Origin: Armatimonadota bacterium
Lineage (GTDB): Bacteria; Armatimonadota; UBA5829; DTJY01
NCBI GenBank assembly: GCA_029907255.1
Contig: JARYMF010000005.1
Coordinates: forward strand, 62,001 to 126,000
Direction of reading: 5' to 3'
Length of the DNA stretch: 64,000 nt
This document shows, piece after piece, positions 14,139 to 36,549 of the stretch. The translations under genes and the position numbers were made by a program. Within the stretch, counting starts at the first letter, position 1. The number at the start of each line of letters is the position of its first letter. Under the pieces are notes generated by a model. That model was not told where the DNA came from and did not search any database. It was given only the letters and a program-made list of their open reading frames with translations.

Positions 14139-15005
14139 TTAGGCGTTGCTGTCTTCTTCAGCAGGCTCAACATGGGTAACGATTGTAACATTTTCGAGCT
14201 CAGACCGAATCTTATCCTCCACCTCTTCGGCTAGCTCGTGAGCGGTTGTGAGGCTCATATCGCGAGGCATTAGTAAATGAACGTCTATGTGGCGCTGGGC
14301 GCCTGCTTTTCGCGTTCTGAGTTTATGAAAATCAAGAATTCTAGGTTCTGAATTGATAATTTCAACGATTCGCTCCATTTCAGCCGCTGGAAGTTGGGAA
14401 TCCATCAAAGGCCCAATAGCTTTCCTTGAAAGCTGGATGCCAATCCAACCAATCCATAAGGCGACACACAGACCAATTAAGCGGTCGAGAATCACGAAAT
14501 TGGTCAAATGAACCAGAATCAGACCAAAGAGCACGCCTAAGGAAGTATACACATCAAGTCTGAGATGATGGCCATCAGCTTCAAGTGCAATCGAATCTGT
14601 CTGCTTAGCGACACGGAAAAGGTTTGCTGACACAAGAAAATTCGCCACAGCAGAGACCAACATTATAACCATACCAAGGTCAAGACGCTCCACTGGAGCA
14701 TTGGTTATAATACGCTCAATGCTTTCATACACTATGTATGCGCCTGCTACAATAATCAAAAGGGCCTCGACTGTGCCCGAAAGGTTTTCAAACTTACCAT
14801 GGCCATATGCATGCGCTTCGTCTGCAGGTCGGTCGGCAAAAAGCACCGCGATATAGGCAATAACAGCGGCAATTAGGTCCACCGCCGAGTGTACAGCCTC
14901 AGCAAGGATGCTCATTGACCCACCAATTATGCCTATGGCTCCCTTCGCTAGCACCAACAAGACGTTCGATATTATTGATAGTCTCGCAGCACCAGTTTTA
15001 TCCAT
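14139..15005 (-). CDS. Cation diffusion facilitator (CDF) metal efflux transporter
   Basis: An inner-membrane divalent-metal/proton antiporter. The 288 residues contain about six membrane helices. Helix 2 has AEAVHSAVDLIAA and helix 5 ALEADGHHLRLDVYTS, giving the paired HxxxD metal-site motifs of CDF transporters. A C-terminal cytoplasmic domain (about 205-288) has conserved histidines (HKLRTRKAGAQRHIDVHLLM). The leader reads as a NiCo riboswitch followed by a terminator, pointing to cobalt/nickel (or a related transition metal) as the inducing substrate. That match is by eye against the known motif. Confidence 0.93.
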   Translation of the reverse strand: MDKTGAARLSIISNVLLVLAKGAIGIIGGSMSILAEAVHSAVDLIAAVIAYIAVLFADRPADEAHAYGHGKFENLSGTVEALLIIVAGAYIVYESIERIITNAPVERLDLGMVIMLVSAVANFLVSANLFRVAKQTDSIALEADGHHLRLDVYTSLGVLFGLILVHLTNFVILDRLIGLCVALWIGWIGIQLSRKAIGPLMDSQLPAAEMERIVEIINSEPRILDFHKLRTRKAGAQRHIDVHLLMPRDMSLTTAHELAEEVEDKIRSELENVTIVTHVEPAEEDSNA

Positions 15006-15037: not shown

Positions 15038-15079
15038 AAAAAACCTGCGGGTACAAATGACAGAGTAGTCCCGCAGGTT
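15038..15079 (-). terminator. Regulated terminator of the CDF leader
   Basis: On the minus strand AACCTGCGGG (15079-15070) pairs perfectly with CCCGCAGGTT (15051-15042), followed by a run of T (to 15038). The 5' half of this stem is also part of the riboswitch core (last hairpin and GGGAC), so aptamer and terminator are mutually exclusive. Confidence 0.85.
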
Positions 15080-15145
15080 GAACCTGCTGCTTGTTAACAC
15101 AAGCCCGGCACCATCCCATTAATGGGATCGCCTGTTCTAACGATG
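15061..15145 (-). promoter_or_regulatory. NiCo (czcD-type) cobalt/nickel riboswitch, by eye
   Basis: Reading the minus strand from about 15145, the order is AACAGGC, a hairpin GATCCCAT/ATGGGATG, GTGCCGGGCT, a hairpin CTTGTG/ACAAG, GCAGC, then CAGGTTCAACCTG followed by CGGGAC. This reproduces the NiCo consensus layout: CAGGC - stem - GCCGGGC - stem - GCAAC-like - stem - GGGAC around a four-way junction. It sits 55-140 bases upstream of a CDF exporter, the usual target of this class, and overlaps a terminator, giving an expected ON switch with metal. The weakest point is the outer P1 helix, which I can only draw imperfectly. Confidence 0.8.
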
Positions 15146-15232
15146 TGTTTTCGTAATTATGAGATTTTTCAATAATATTATAGGCAGTCTATACAATCAA
15201 GTCAAGGCAAAAATCTTACTTTCAGATGTTTC

Positions 15233-30193: not shown

Positions 30194-30829
30194 TTAGAAG
30201 GTTGCGTTCCAGCCTAGTCTGATGAAGTAGTCTGGTTTTGTTGCAGAACTATTTGGAAAACTGTGTGCCGCCCACAGGGTGGCCGTTTTCCCTATTTGCA
30301 ACCTAAATCCAGCTGTTAATCCATTCTCTTCGCCTGAGATATAATCCGCTTGGACTGCAAACTTCGGGCTGAGGGTCTTGTCAAATCCAAGCATCACGCT
30401 GGAAACACCCTCCATTTTAATCACCCCAGCATGCAGTCGAGCAGGCTTGAAGCTTTTGCTCATTACCAGGTAAGGCTGCTTCTCCGTATTACGAGAGAAG
30501 TTTTGGACGCCTATAGCAACTGCTGGACGACCACCATCCTCCTCCAAGCATCTCCATTTGGCGTTCATCCAAGCATCAAGGTGTCCATCTTCTATTCTCT
30601 GGTCTACGCCGACCTCTACACCGTTACCCGCTCCTATCTGGAGGAGCACATATGAATCCCCCTCGGGGCCAAAGCGCATCCCCCCAGAGTATGGGGTCTC
30701 CACCATAAAGACATCCTTTTCAAGGACGTCAGCAGTCGGGATTATATTGAGACCTGTTGGTGAGCAATAGCTATTCCCCAGGCATATACAGACAAGGCTG
30801 AGCGCAAAAACATATTTTAATTTGCGCAA
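30194..30829 (-). CDS. Predicted small outer-membrane beta-barrel protein, YjbH-like
   Basis: Starts at TTG 30829 with a perfect GGAGGTG 8 bases upstream. 211 residues: signal peptide MRKLKYVFALSLVCICLG then TGLNIIPTADVL, a start that recalls YjbH-type exopolysaccharide barrel proteins. The body alternates hydrophobic and polar residues in short strands (YVLLQIGAGNGVEVGVDQRI, ARLHAGVIKMEGVSSVMLG, FAVQADYISGEENGLTAGFR) and ends YFIRLGWNATF, with a C-terminal aromatic as expected for BAM substrates. Function is not assignable. It is divergent from the GHL10 gene and monocistronic. Confidence 0.7.
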   Translation of the reverse strand: MRKLKYVFALSLVCICLGNSYCSPTGLNIIPTADVLEKDVFMVETPYSGGMRFGPEGDSYVLLQIGAGNGVEVGVDQRIEDGHLDAWMNAKWRCLEEDGGRPAVAIGVQNFSRNTEKQPYLVMSKSFKPARLHAGVIKMEGVSSVMLGFDKTLSPKFAVQADYISGEENGLTAGFRLQIGKTATLWAAHSFPNSSATKPDYFIRLGWNATF

Positions 30830-33813: not shown

Positions 33814-33864
33814 TTTTACGGGGTAAAAGCCCATATTCTTGTACCAATAATTATATTGGTAACT

Positions 33865-33969
33865 AGCAACCGAAAAAGGCAAACTCGTCGAAAGGCGGGG
33901 ACGCAAAGCCGCTGGGTCTAACTCTCCCGACGATTAGGAGACATGACTGCCAGGCTGCCGAAGTTAGCT
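33865..33969 (+). promoter_or_regulatory. GEMM-I (cyclic di-GMP) riboswitch aptamer
   Basis: The plus strand reads GGCAAACTCGTCGAAAGGCG then GGGACGCAAAGCC, with the GAAA tetraloop between them, exactly the P2 hairpin of GEMM-I RNAs. GCTGGGTCT, a variable hairpin (TCTCCCGACGATTAGGAGA) and TGCCAGGCTGCCG supply the P3 side with the tetraloop receptor. P1 is AGCAAC (33865-33870) with GTTAGCT (33963-33969) and one bulge. In my hand alignment to the Vc2 RNA, the ligand-contacting positions 20 and 47 are G and A, which favours c-di-GMP over cGAMP. Downstream genes: a 76-residue orphan and pcrA. Confidence 0.92.
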
Positions 33970-34041
33970 GATTACCGCGGGACAACCATTTTCCCATTTT
34001 AGGAAGCATAAATGGAATCCCGCAGTAACCACAGCGCTTAA
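33967..34041 (+). promoter_or_regulatory. Riboswitch expression platform with a nine-codon leader ORF
   Basis: GCTG-A-TTACCGCGGGA (33967-33982) pairs with TCCCGCAGTAACCACAGC (34018-34035), and CCATTT (33986-33991) pairs with AAATGG (34010-34015). The long stem uses the 3' strand of aptamer P1, so the two are exclusive. Inside, AGGAAG (34001-34006) is 5 bases before ATG 34012, which opens MESRSNHSA and stops at 34041; the inner stem hides that ATG. A weak GCGC stem and CTATTTTT follow at about 34034-34056, perhaps a terminator. Direction of control is not clear. Confidence 0.55.
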
Positions 34042-34087
34042 TGGCGCCTATTTTTGCGTTTCCTAAACAGGGTCGGGGCACAACAAT

Positions 34088-34318
34088 ATGGACCTTGCGG
34101 AATCCGAACTTGCCAAACCTGCCATCGAAAGGTTCAAGGTCGAAGTACTAGGCGGAGATGCGGTTTTTCTCACAGACCGCAGGCTCGGCCACAAGATCTA
34201 TATGGCACCTAAACGTATGTCTCGACCAGAATTACGCCGCTATATTGCCCTTCTAAACAGCGACCTCAAACGCCTAACAATCCAAGATTTTTTTGCCAAA
34301 TACGGTTTGCGCGGATAA
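34088..34318 (+). CDS. 76-residue orphan protein downstream of the c-di-GMP riboswitch
   Basis: MDLAESELAKPAIERFKVEV begins a compact, soluble, mixed-charge protein with no signal peptide or membrane helix. It has a predicted beta region (VEVLGGDAVFLTDRRLGHKI) followed by helical segments (SRPELRRYIALLNSDLKRL, TIQDFFAKYGLRG). I recognise no family. The evidence for a real gene is its position directly after a riboswitch and expression platform, its codon pattern resembling neighbours, and lack of any better ORF. The ribosome-binding site is weak (GGTCGGGG about 9 bases upstream). pcrA starts 71 bases later and may be co-transcribed. A DNA/RNA-binding or regulatory role is guesswork. Confidence 0.6.
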   Translation: MDLAESELAKPAIERFKVEVLGGDAVFLTDRRLGHKIYMAPKRMSRPELRRYIALLNSDLKRLTIQDFFAKYGLRG

Positions 34319-34389
34319 TTAAACTCAAAGTGCAAACAACTATACCTTCCCAGAAAGGCAGACGATGGGCTATAATGTCATAGACGCCC

Positions 34390-36549
34390 ATGGAACATAT
34401 CCTCAAAGACTTGAATCCCGCCCAAAGGGAAGCCGTATGCCACTCAGAGGGTCCTCTCCTGATTTTTGCAGGAGCAGGAAGCGGCAAGACTCGTGCTCTT
34501 ACTTACCGAATGGCTTATTTGATTGGTGCAAAGGGTGTAAGGCCGTCCAATATCCTTGCAGTTACCTTTACCAATAAAGCCGCGCGGGAAATGAAAGAGC
34601 GCATTAAAGGTTTAGTTGGAAGTCGAATGCTAGAACAGATGTGGGTTGGTACTTTCCACTCCGTCTGTGCCCGAATGCTTCGAGAACGAGGCGACCGAAT
34701 TGGTTTGGATAGGAACTTTGTCATATTCGATGAACAAGATCAACTCACGCTTCTTCGCGAATGCCTGGAGCAGCTAAACATTGACGAAAGATTTTACCCT
34801 GCTAGGCAAATACAATGGCATATCAGTCATGCTAAAGAACAGATGATTATGCCTGAAGAATATATCAACCTCTACAAAGGTGCTCTCGAGAACCAAATCG
34901 GAAAAGTTTACCCCCTCTACCAAAAGAAGCTTCTTGAAAATCGGGCACTTGACTTCGACGACTTAATTTTATATGCCGTGTGGCTACTCCGAGAATGCCC
35001 GGACGTTCGCCAACATTACCAACAAAAATTCAAGCATATTCTCGTAGATGAATATCAGGATATTAATCATTCTCAGTTTCAATTTGTGAAACTACTTGCC
35101 GAGGAACATCGGAATATCTGCGTAGTTGGAGACGACGACCAAAGCATTTATTCATGGCGTGGCGCAGATGTGGGAATTATACTAGGATTCACAAAGCATT
35201 TTCCAGATGCAAAAGTGGTGAAGCTTGAGCAAAATTACCGCTCGACTCGGAATATCCTCGACGCAGCCTATCATGTTATCTCAAAAAACTCTACACGCGC
35301 TGAGAAAAAGCTTTGGACGGAACGCGGGGAAGGGGCGCTCCTCGATAAAATCGAAGCGTCGGACGAGCACGACGAGGCGTCGCAAGTTGTTAACCGGATG
35401 CGTGATAAGGTTTTGGCAGGTGAAAGGGAATATTCCGATTTTGTGGTGCTATACCGGACAAACGCTCAGTCACGTGTGTTTGAAGACGTTCTCCGCAACT
35501 ATCGCGTGCCATACAAGATTATTGGAGGCTTCAGATTCTACGAGCGCAAAGAAATCAAAGATTTGCTAGCCTACCTTCGCCTTGCTTACAATCCCTCAGA
35601 CACCGTAAGCCTACTGCGCATCATTAACGTTCCTCCACGTGGAGTTGGGCCTATCACCATCGAGCGTATACGGGACTTCGCTGAAAAAGAGGGCATAAGC
35701 CTCTACGAAGCATTGCACCGGCTAGAAGAAATAGAAGTACCTCGTGCACGACGTGAGTTGAATGCACTTGCCAAGCTAATCGAGTTTCTCCATTCTAAAC
35801 AAGAGGAATACTCTGTGGGTAAACTACTAATCGAGATTGTGGAGAACACCAATTACATAACAGAGCTTCAAAAACAAGGGACTCACGAAGCAGAAGCAAG
35901 GGTAGAAAACGTTAAAGAGCTTTTCTCAGTAATAAAAGAATTCGAGGAAATAAGCGAGAATCCAACGCTAGCCAAGTTCCTCGAAGAAATGGCACTAATG
36001 TCGGATATTGACAGCTATGAAGAAAATGAAAATGCAGTTGTGCTTATGACCCTTCACTCAGCAAAGGGACTAGAGTTTCCTGTAGTTTTCATGGTTGGCA
36101 TGGAAGAAGGTATATTCCCTCACAGCCGCTCTATGCAAAGCAGAGAAGAGCTTGAGGAGGAACGCAGGCTGTGTTATGTTGGAATGACGCGAGCTAAAGA
36201 TGAACTTTGCTTAAGTTATGCACATACTCGGACTCTGTTTGGCGAGCACAGGCGCATGGTTCCGTCTCGGTTTATTAGGGAAATTCCGCCTGAAATGTTC
36301 GTTACCCATAGGCCGACAACACAAGCTGATATGCCAACTTCACAGCTTTGGGTGGGCACTGAAAAACAAAGAGGACCGACAATAGCCTTCAAGATTGGAG
36401 ACTATGTAAGACACAGCGTTTTTGGCTTGGGAATAGTGATTGATATTAAATCAGATGACAAAGACGTACAAATCACGGTTGCTTTCGAAGAAATTGGCGT
36501 AAAAAGGCTAATGCTTTCATTTGCGCCGCTTGAAAAGGTAGAAGTTTAG
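34390..36549 (+). CDS. pcrA: UvrD/PcrA-family superfamily 1 DNA helicase
   Basis: A 3'-to-5' ATP-dependent helicase for repair and replication-fork clearing. The 719 residues start MEHILKDLNPAQREAV (Q motif). Walker A is FAGAGSGKTRALTYR, then TFTNKAAREMKERI (motif Ia), LVDEYQDINHSQ (motif II), GDDDQSIYSWRGAD (III), LEQNYRST (IV), VVLMTLHSAKGLEFPVVF (V) and CYVGMTRAKDELCL (VI). The C-terminal about 70 residues (VRHSVFGLGIVIDIKS...) form the PcrA-type tudor-like domain. The length is typical of PcrA. A TATAAT lies at 34371-34376 but without a good -35. It could also be read through from the riboswitch transcript. Confidence 0.97.
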   Translation: MEHILKDLNPAQREAVCHSEGPLLIFAGAGSGKTRALTYRMAYLIGAKGVRPSNILAVTFTNKAAREMKERIKGLVGSRMLEQMWVGTFHSVCARMLRERGDRIGLDRNFVIFDEQDQLTLLRECLEQLNIDERFYPARQIQWHISHAKEQMIMPEEYINLYKGALENQIGKVYPLYQKKLLENRALDFDDLILYAVWLLRECPDVRQHYQQKFKHILVDEYQDINHSQFQFVKLLAEEHRNICVVGDDDQSIYSWRGADVGIILGFTKHFPDAKVVKLEQNYRSTRNILDAAYHVISKNSTRAEKKLWTERGEGALLDKIEASDEHDEASQVVNRMRDKVLAGEREYSDFVVLYRTNAQSRVFEDVLRNYRVPYKIIGGFRFYERKEIKDLLAYLRLAYNPSDTVSLLRIINVPPRGVGPITIERIRDFAEKEGISLYEALHRLEEIEVPRARRELNALAKLIEFLHSKQEEYSVGKLLIEIVENTNYITELQKQGTHEAEARVENVKELFSVIKEFEEISENPTLAKFLEEMALMSDIDSYEENENAVVLMTLHSAKGLEFPVVFMVGMEEGIFPHSRSMQSREELEEERRLCYVGMTRAKDELCLSYAHTRTLFGEHRRMVPSRFIREIPPEMFVTHRPTTQADMPTSQLWVGTEKQRGPTIAFKIGDYVRHSVFGLGIVIDIKSDDKDVQITVAFEEIGVKRLMLSFAPLEKVEV

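Follow-up and report, generated by a model that had tools for sequence, protein, structure and literature searches.

A predicted c-di-GMP-I riboswitch in the leader of a small orphan protein gene in Armatimonadota

The ligand pocket of GEMM-I riboswitches has been described in the Vc2 RNA, in which G20, A47 and C92 touch c-di-GMP (PMC4744006), and for which the list of contacts includes C46-A47-A48-A49-G50 (PMC7288161). The identity of nucleotide 20 bears on ligand choice, since a cGAMP riboswitch that undergoes the A20G change comes to sense c-di-GMP instead (PMC6456294). Both ON and OFF switches are known among GEMM-I elements: Cd1 is an OFF switch, while the pilM switch of Geobacter metallireducens, a cGAMP riboswitch, has been validated as an ON switch in which the terminator sequesters the ligand-pairing C (PMC9262584).

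We analysed a stretch of 64,000 nucleotides (the window) from an Armatimonadota genome of 3.2 Mb, referred to here as G000. Scanning the whole window against all Rfam models with cmscan returned two RNAs, one of which was a GEMM-clan aptamer at 33869-33963 on the forward strand, matched by RF03167 over its full length (1-80/80) with 67.8 bits (gathering score 59) and an E-value of 6.9e-14. In a whole-genome search, the parent model RF01051 matched the same element at positions 1-87/87 with 75.9 bits (gathering score 35; E 4.9e-15). Four RF01051 elements were present in the genome, including paralogous elements at C9 and C4, and RF03167 recovered the same four. These scores place the GEMM element far above chance, and the covariance search that the first-pass annotation had suggested was thus highly significant. 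The window also contains a NiCo riboswitch on the reverse strand (15064-15149; RF02683, 53.3 bits). It is followed by an evident terminator-like sequence and precedes a gene resembling a cation diffusion facilitator transporter (14139-15005, reverse strand), as expected for the class.

The architecture of the aptamer was examined by RNAfold and duplexfold of an extended region. The 5' strand of P1, UAGCAACCG (33864-33872), pairs with 33959-33970, and the pairing of UAGC-AAC-CG with CG-(AA)-GUU-(A)-GCUG is longer than that of the Rfam model. In the orthologous leader of a second genome (G003), comparison of the sequences showed P1 as CAGC-GAC-CG with CG-AA-GUC-C-GCUG, so that a compensatory change from AAC/GUU to GAC/GUC keeps the pairing. 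The cmscan alignment placed the P2 hairpin at 33884-33899, with a GAAA tetraloop at 33890-33893. The GAAA loop, GGGACGCAAAGCC and P1, from which a GEMM-I pattern had been claimed earlier, were therefore all found in the aptamer. The RNA class is well known, and this is a GEMM-I switch of the standard type whose predicted target gene is new.

We then considered how the aptamer could control expression. The aptamer 3' strand, CAGGCUGCCGAAGUUAGCUG (33951-33970), also forms the 5' half of a terminator and acts as the switching strand in folds computed with and without constraints. It can pair with the terminator 3' half, CAGCGCUUAAUGGCGCCU (34031-34049), across a long hairpin, GAUUACCGCGGGA...UCCCGCAGUAACC (33970-34030), that joins the two halves, and a U-tract, AUUUUU, follows, so that the 3' part of the terminator extends over 34031-34055. 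The equivalent of the 3' half in G004 is GGCAGCUUGG-UUUUU. The aptamer proposed earlier is real, but its core spans 33869-33963, and the terminator with the long hairpin (33951-34055) also belongs to the unit. The terminator sequesters the ligand-pairing C of the aptamer, and folding computations indicated that terminator and aptamer pairings are mutually exclusive in the orthologues. The unconstrained fold (ViennaRNA) contained the terminator stem in all four orthologous leaders and, with ligand energy not counted, lay 9-17 kcal/mol below the fold in which the aptamer was forced (free and forced, in kcal/mol: G000, -63.3 and -54.5; G001, -64.4 and -53.3; G003, -66.9 and -50.3; G004, -62.6 and -49.4). 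In G000, the unconstrained fold keeps P2 and P3 beside part of the terminator stem, so that the two structures compete less clearly there than they do in G004. Simple terminator-like hairpins barely exceeded the chance expectation for this region. A consensus promoter search found no strong sigma-70 promoter upstream of the aptamer.

Since the aptamer itself supplies, with its 3' strand, one half of the terminator, an ON switch is predicted, and we consider it quite probable that the leader of the small-protein gene carries a transcriptional c-di-GMP-I (GEMM-I) ON switch. We infer both that c-di-GMP is bound and that binding turns the gene on. When c-di-GMP is absent, 33951-33970 would pair with 34031-34049 to form the terminator, which is followed by U5, and transcription would end ahead of the open reading frame. 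When c-di-GMP is present, P1 and P3 would hold 33951-33970, the terminator would be blocked, and the 76-residue protein would be made. Control in the opposite direction, or at the level of translation, has precedent in the two-way use of GEMM-I and in Cd1 (PMC9262584), but we regard it as improbable here, because in the orthologues the aptamer 3' strand is used by the terminator and a U-tract lies directly behind, although this tract is weak in G003.

The gene that follows the putative ON switch (34088-34318, forward strand) encodes 76 residues and has a weak Shine-Dalgarno sequence. Orthologues were found in three further genomes, G001, G003 and G004, with 97%, 59% and 43% identity, respectively, to the G000 protein; the four genomes represent three genera, two of them belonging to one genus. 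The orthologues have the same start and 25 of 76 residues are invariant. Between G000 and G001 there were six synonymous and two non-synonymous changes (dS 0.12, dN 0.012), and synonymous sites were saturated between this pair and G003 and G004. In all four genomes the gene lies directly behind a GEMM-I element on the same strand, starting about 160-210 nt behind the GGCAAA motif. Purifying selection, together with the position of each orthologue behind GEMM-I, indicates that the open reading frame is a real gene, as had been proposed from the G000 sequence by itself, and it represents a small-protein family that was previously unlisted. The clustering of homologues proposed in the first-pass annotation thus yielded a family linked to GEMM-I throughout. 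No homologue was found outside the taxonomic family among the 291 genomes of the phylum that were searched, and in a genome-contig collection only the G004 record was matched (JANYKG010000143.1, an Armatimonadetes MAG). The one other genome of the family (the fifth; completeness 99%) had no copy of GEMM-I, GGDEF, FlgM or the open reading frame. The tie between gene and switch therefore spans three genera, with a natural negative in a family member that has no c-di-GMP genes.

The gene next downstream was also considered as the true target of the riboswitch, with the 76-residue reading frame as a bystander leader peptide. It encodes a PcrA/UvrD helicase (34390-36549, forward strand), may be reached by read-through, and follows the small gene by 71 nt on the same strand in both G000 and G001. 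However, the switch and the small gene stay together in G003 and G004, while the gene behind them is a different one: an 885-residue protein in G003 and, as named from its sequence, a formate-THF ligase in G004. In addition, the small protein has remained 43-59% identical from end to end, with synonymous change saturated. The variation of the next gene among orthologous loci indicates that the conserved unit consists of the aptamer and the small gene and that the helicase is incidental. We therefore regard this alternative as very unlikely, and synteny rules out the helicase as a conserved target. The earlier identification of the next gene as a helicase was correct for this genome, but the helicase has no place in the conserved unit. 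A promoter-like TTCCCA-18-TATAAT at 34347-34376 did not stand out from what chance would give in this region. Elsewhere in the window, 30194-30829 on the reverse strand encodes a secreted-looking protein of 211 residues with a weak, below-cut-off match to YjbH (exopolysaccharide; E 0.00056).

The RF03167 model carries the name c-di-GMP-I-GGC, which could indicate a variant with an altered ligand. In its favour, the E-value in cmscan was lower for RF03167 and the score exceeded gathering. When the model consensus is read against the numbering of the pocket, the label 'GGC' appears to denote positions 20, 47 and 92. The consensus, GACGCGAAGCC, has G at position 47, whereas the window reads GACGCAAAGCC at this motif, with A47 at 33905, and the cmscan alignment shows a mismatch here. 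The same A47 was present in 112 of the 113 RF03167 matches in the phylum (one could not be parsed by the script), and G20 in 103 of the 113. The bit score was, moreover, higher for the parent model (75.9 vs 67.8). The element resembles the GGC class in overall sequence and structure and passes its gathering score, but is without the G47 that marks the variant consensus. The label is thus an effect of overall similarity, and a changed ligand is highly doubtful; nucleotide 47 rules out drawing one from the RF03167 name. As the model picks up more than 100 Armatimonadota elements without the defining G47, automated annotation will wrongly assign these to the variant class, and in this phylum the Rfam label calls for caution in inferring a changed ligand.

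The remaining pocket positions of the element were also canonical, with G20 at 33878 and either C of the CC dinucleotide at 33958-33959 as C92. With A47, they lead us to predict c-di-GMP as the ligand, and not a variant ligand or cGAMP; on the earlier question of c-di-GMP versus cGAMP, these nucleotides favour c-di-GMP. G000 encodes five GGDEF proteins. The Hypr signature is a Ser in place of the normal Asp of GGDEF proteins, and the motifs read by script in two of the five were GGEEF with the usual Asp and no Hypr Ser. That the element is a cGAMP (GEMM-Ib) riboswitch is the least probable reading, for although ligands are easily switched on GEMM-I scaffolds and A20 elements occur in related genomes, it carries G20 and not A20, the change from A to G gives a c-di-GMP sensor (PMC6456294), and the two GGDEF motifs that were read have no Hypr residue. 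A20, the mark of GEMM-Ib, was seen in seven Armatimonadota elements (L092, L098, L100, L101, L106, L115 and L078), mostly in genomes that carry G20 elements too; L100 and L101 precede the 64-residue MxIPEAKQYLG family, and L092 precedes an HD-domain signalling gene.

The earlier description of the product as an unrecognised small soluble protein was borne out. Searches with the single sequence and with a four-row profile gave no significant match in Pfam, NCBIfam, PHROGs or PDB sequences, and no membrane segment or signal peptide was apparent by eye. An AlphaFold2 model from four sequences predicted a confident small alpha+beta domain (pLDDT 88, pTM 0.76) with strands at 16-21, 25-30 and 36-38 and main helices at 46-62 and 65-71. 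Foldseek found no fold match to this model with E below 0.1 (best E 0.33 in PDB and 0.13 in BFVD). Our best guess is that the protein serves in the cytosol as a small regulator or adaptor when c-di-GMP is high, in the sessile state, and the part of c-di-GMP-controlled effector given to it earlier is a putative one. A riboswitch before an uncharacterised gene is among the few clues, readable from sequence, to when that gene is used, and the switch marks this one as probably part of a motility or attachment signalling network. A small orphan protein that is invisible to family libraries is thereby tied to probable c-di-GMP control.

We also called the first gene behind 93 GEMM sequence matches in Armatimonadota by script and clustered the products by BLAST, with heuristic starts and a few matches being spurious. 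FlgM-like genes made up 28 of the 93 (the one in G000 matched Pfam FlgM with E 2.7e-13), and clusters of five each, named from sequence, resembled HD-GYP/GGDEF signalling proteins and subtilases. Motility genes are thus the main GEMM-I target theme in the phylum, as elsewhere. GEMM-I precedes an FlgM-like anti-sigma-28 gene at L002/L043 (G000:C9:88669-88771) and 27 other loci, and in several of these leaders the terminator uses the aptamer 5' strand (GUUUGCC-UUUUU), so that at high c-di-GMP more FlgM would be made and the late flagellar genes would be turned off. Among the 93 there were also four small orphan families: the 76-residue family (four members), a 64-residue MTIPEAKQYIGKN family (four), a family of about 70 residues, MLNIYEPVAESG (four), and a Cys-rich family, MANVCSNYDVRGCPA (three). 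A small orphan protein as target is therefore a repeated theme in the phylum. The 64-residue family (MTIPEAKQYIGKNCWISWTDR...), found behind GEMM-I at L044 (G000:C11:50216-50369), L050, L110 and L119, had no Pfam match. The Cys-rich orphan of about 66 residues (MANVCSNYDVRGCPASFYLNC) lies behind GEMM-I at L042 (G000:C4:169323-169460), L049 and L091; in G000 it immediately precedes an HD-GAF-GGDEF protein, and it is possibly a redox or metal-binding partner. A broader proposal, which we hold tentatively and with somewhat less than even confidence, is that Armatimonadota GEMM-I RNAs switch on at least four unrelated, lineage-specific families of small proteins (about 55-80 residues) as dedicated c-di-GMP outputs beside flgM, and that the 76-residue protein is a new c-di-GMP-regulated adaptor with a new small fold.

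Compared with described systems, the expression platform would follow the switching logic of the pilM cGAMP riboswitch, in which the terminator is likewise formed from the aptamer 3' strand and takes the ligand-pairing C (PMC9262584); the differences here are G20, of the c-di-GMP type, and the long hairpin inserted in the terminator loop. The leaders of flgM and HD-GYP/GGDEF genes in Armatimonadota contain the same type of aptamer, but their targets are known (FlgM as anti-sigma-28; cyclase or phosphodiesterase). With c-di-GMP-I (RF01051) the element shares a full-length match, the G20/A47/C92 pocket, the GAAA tetraloop, the P1-P3 architecture, a position upstream of a gene and a genome with GGDEF proteins, and it differs in that the target is a small protein of a family absent from the libraries searched.
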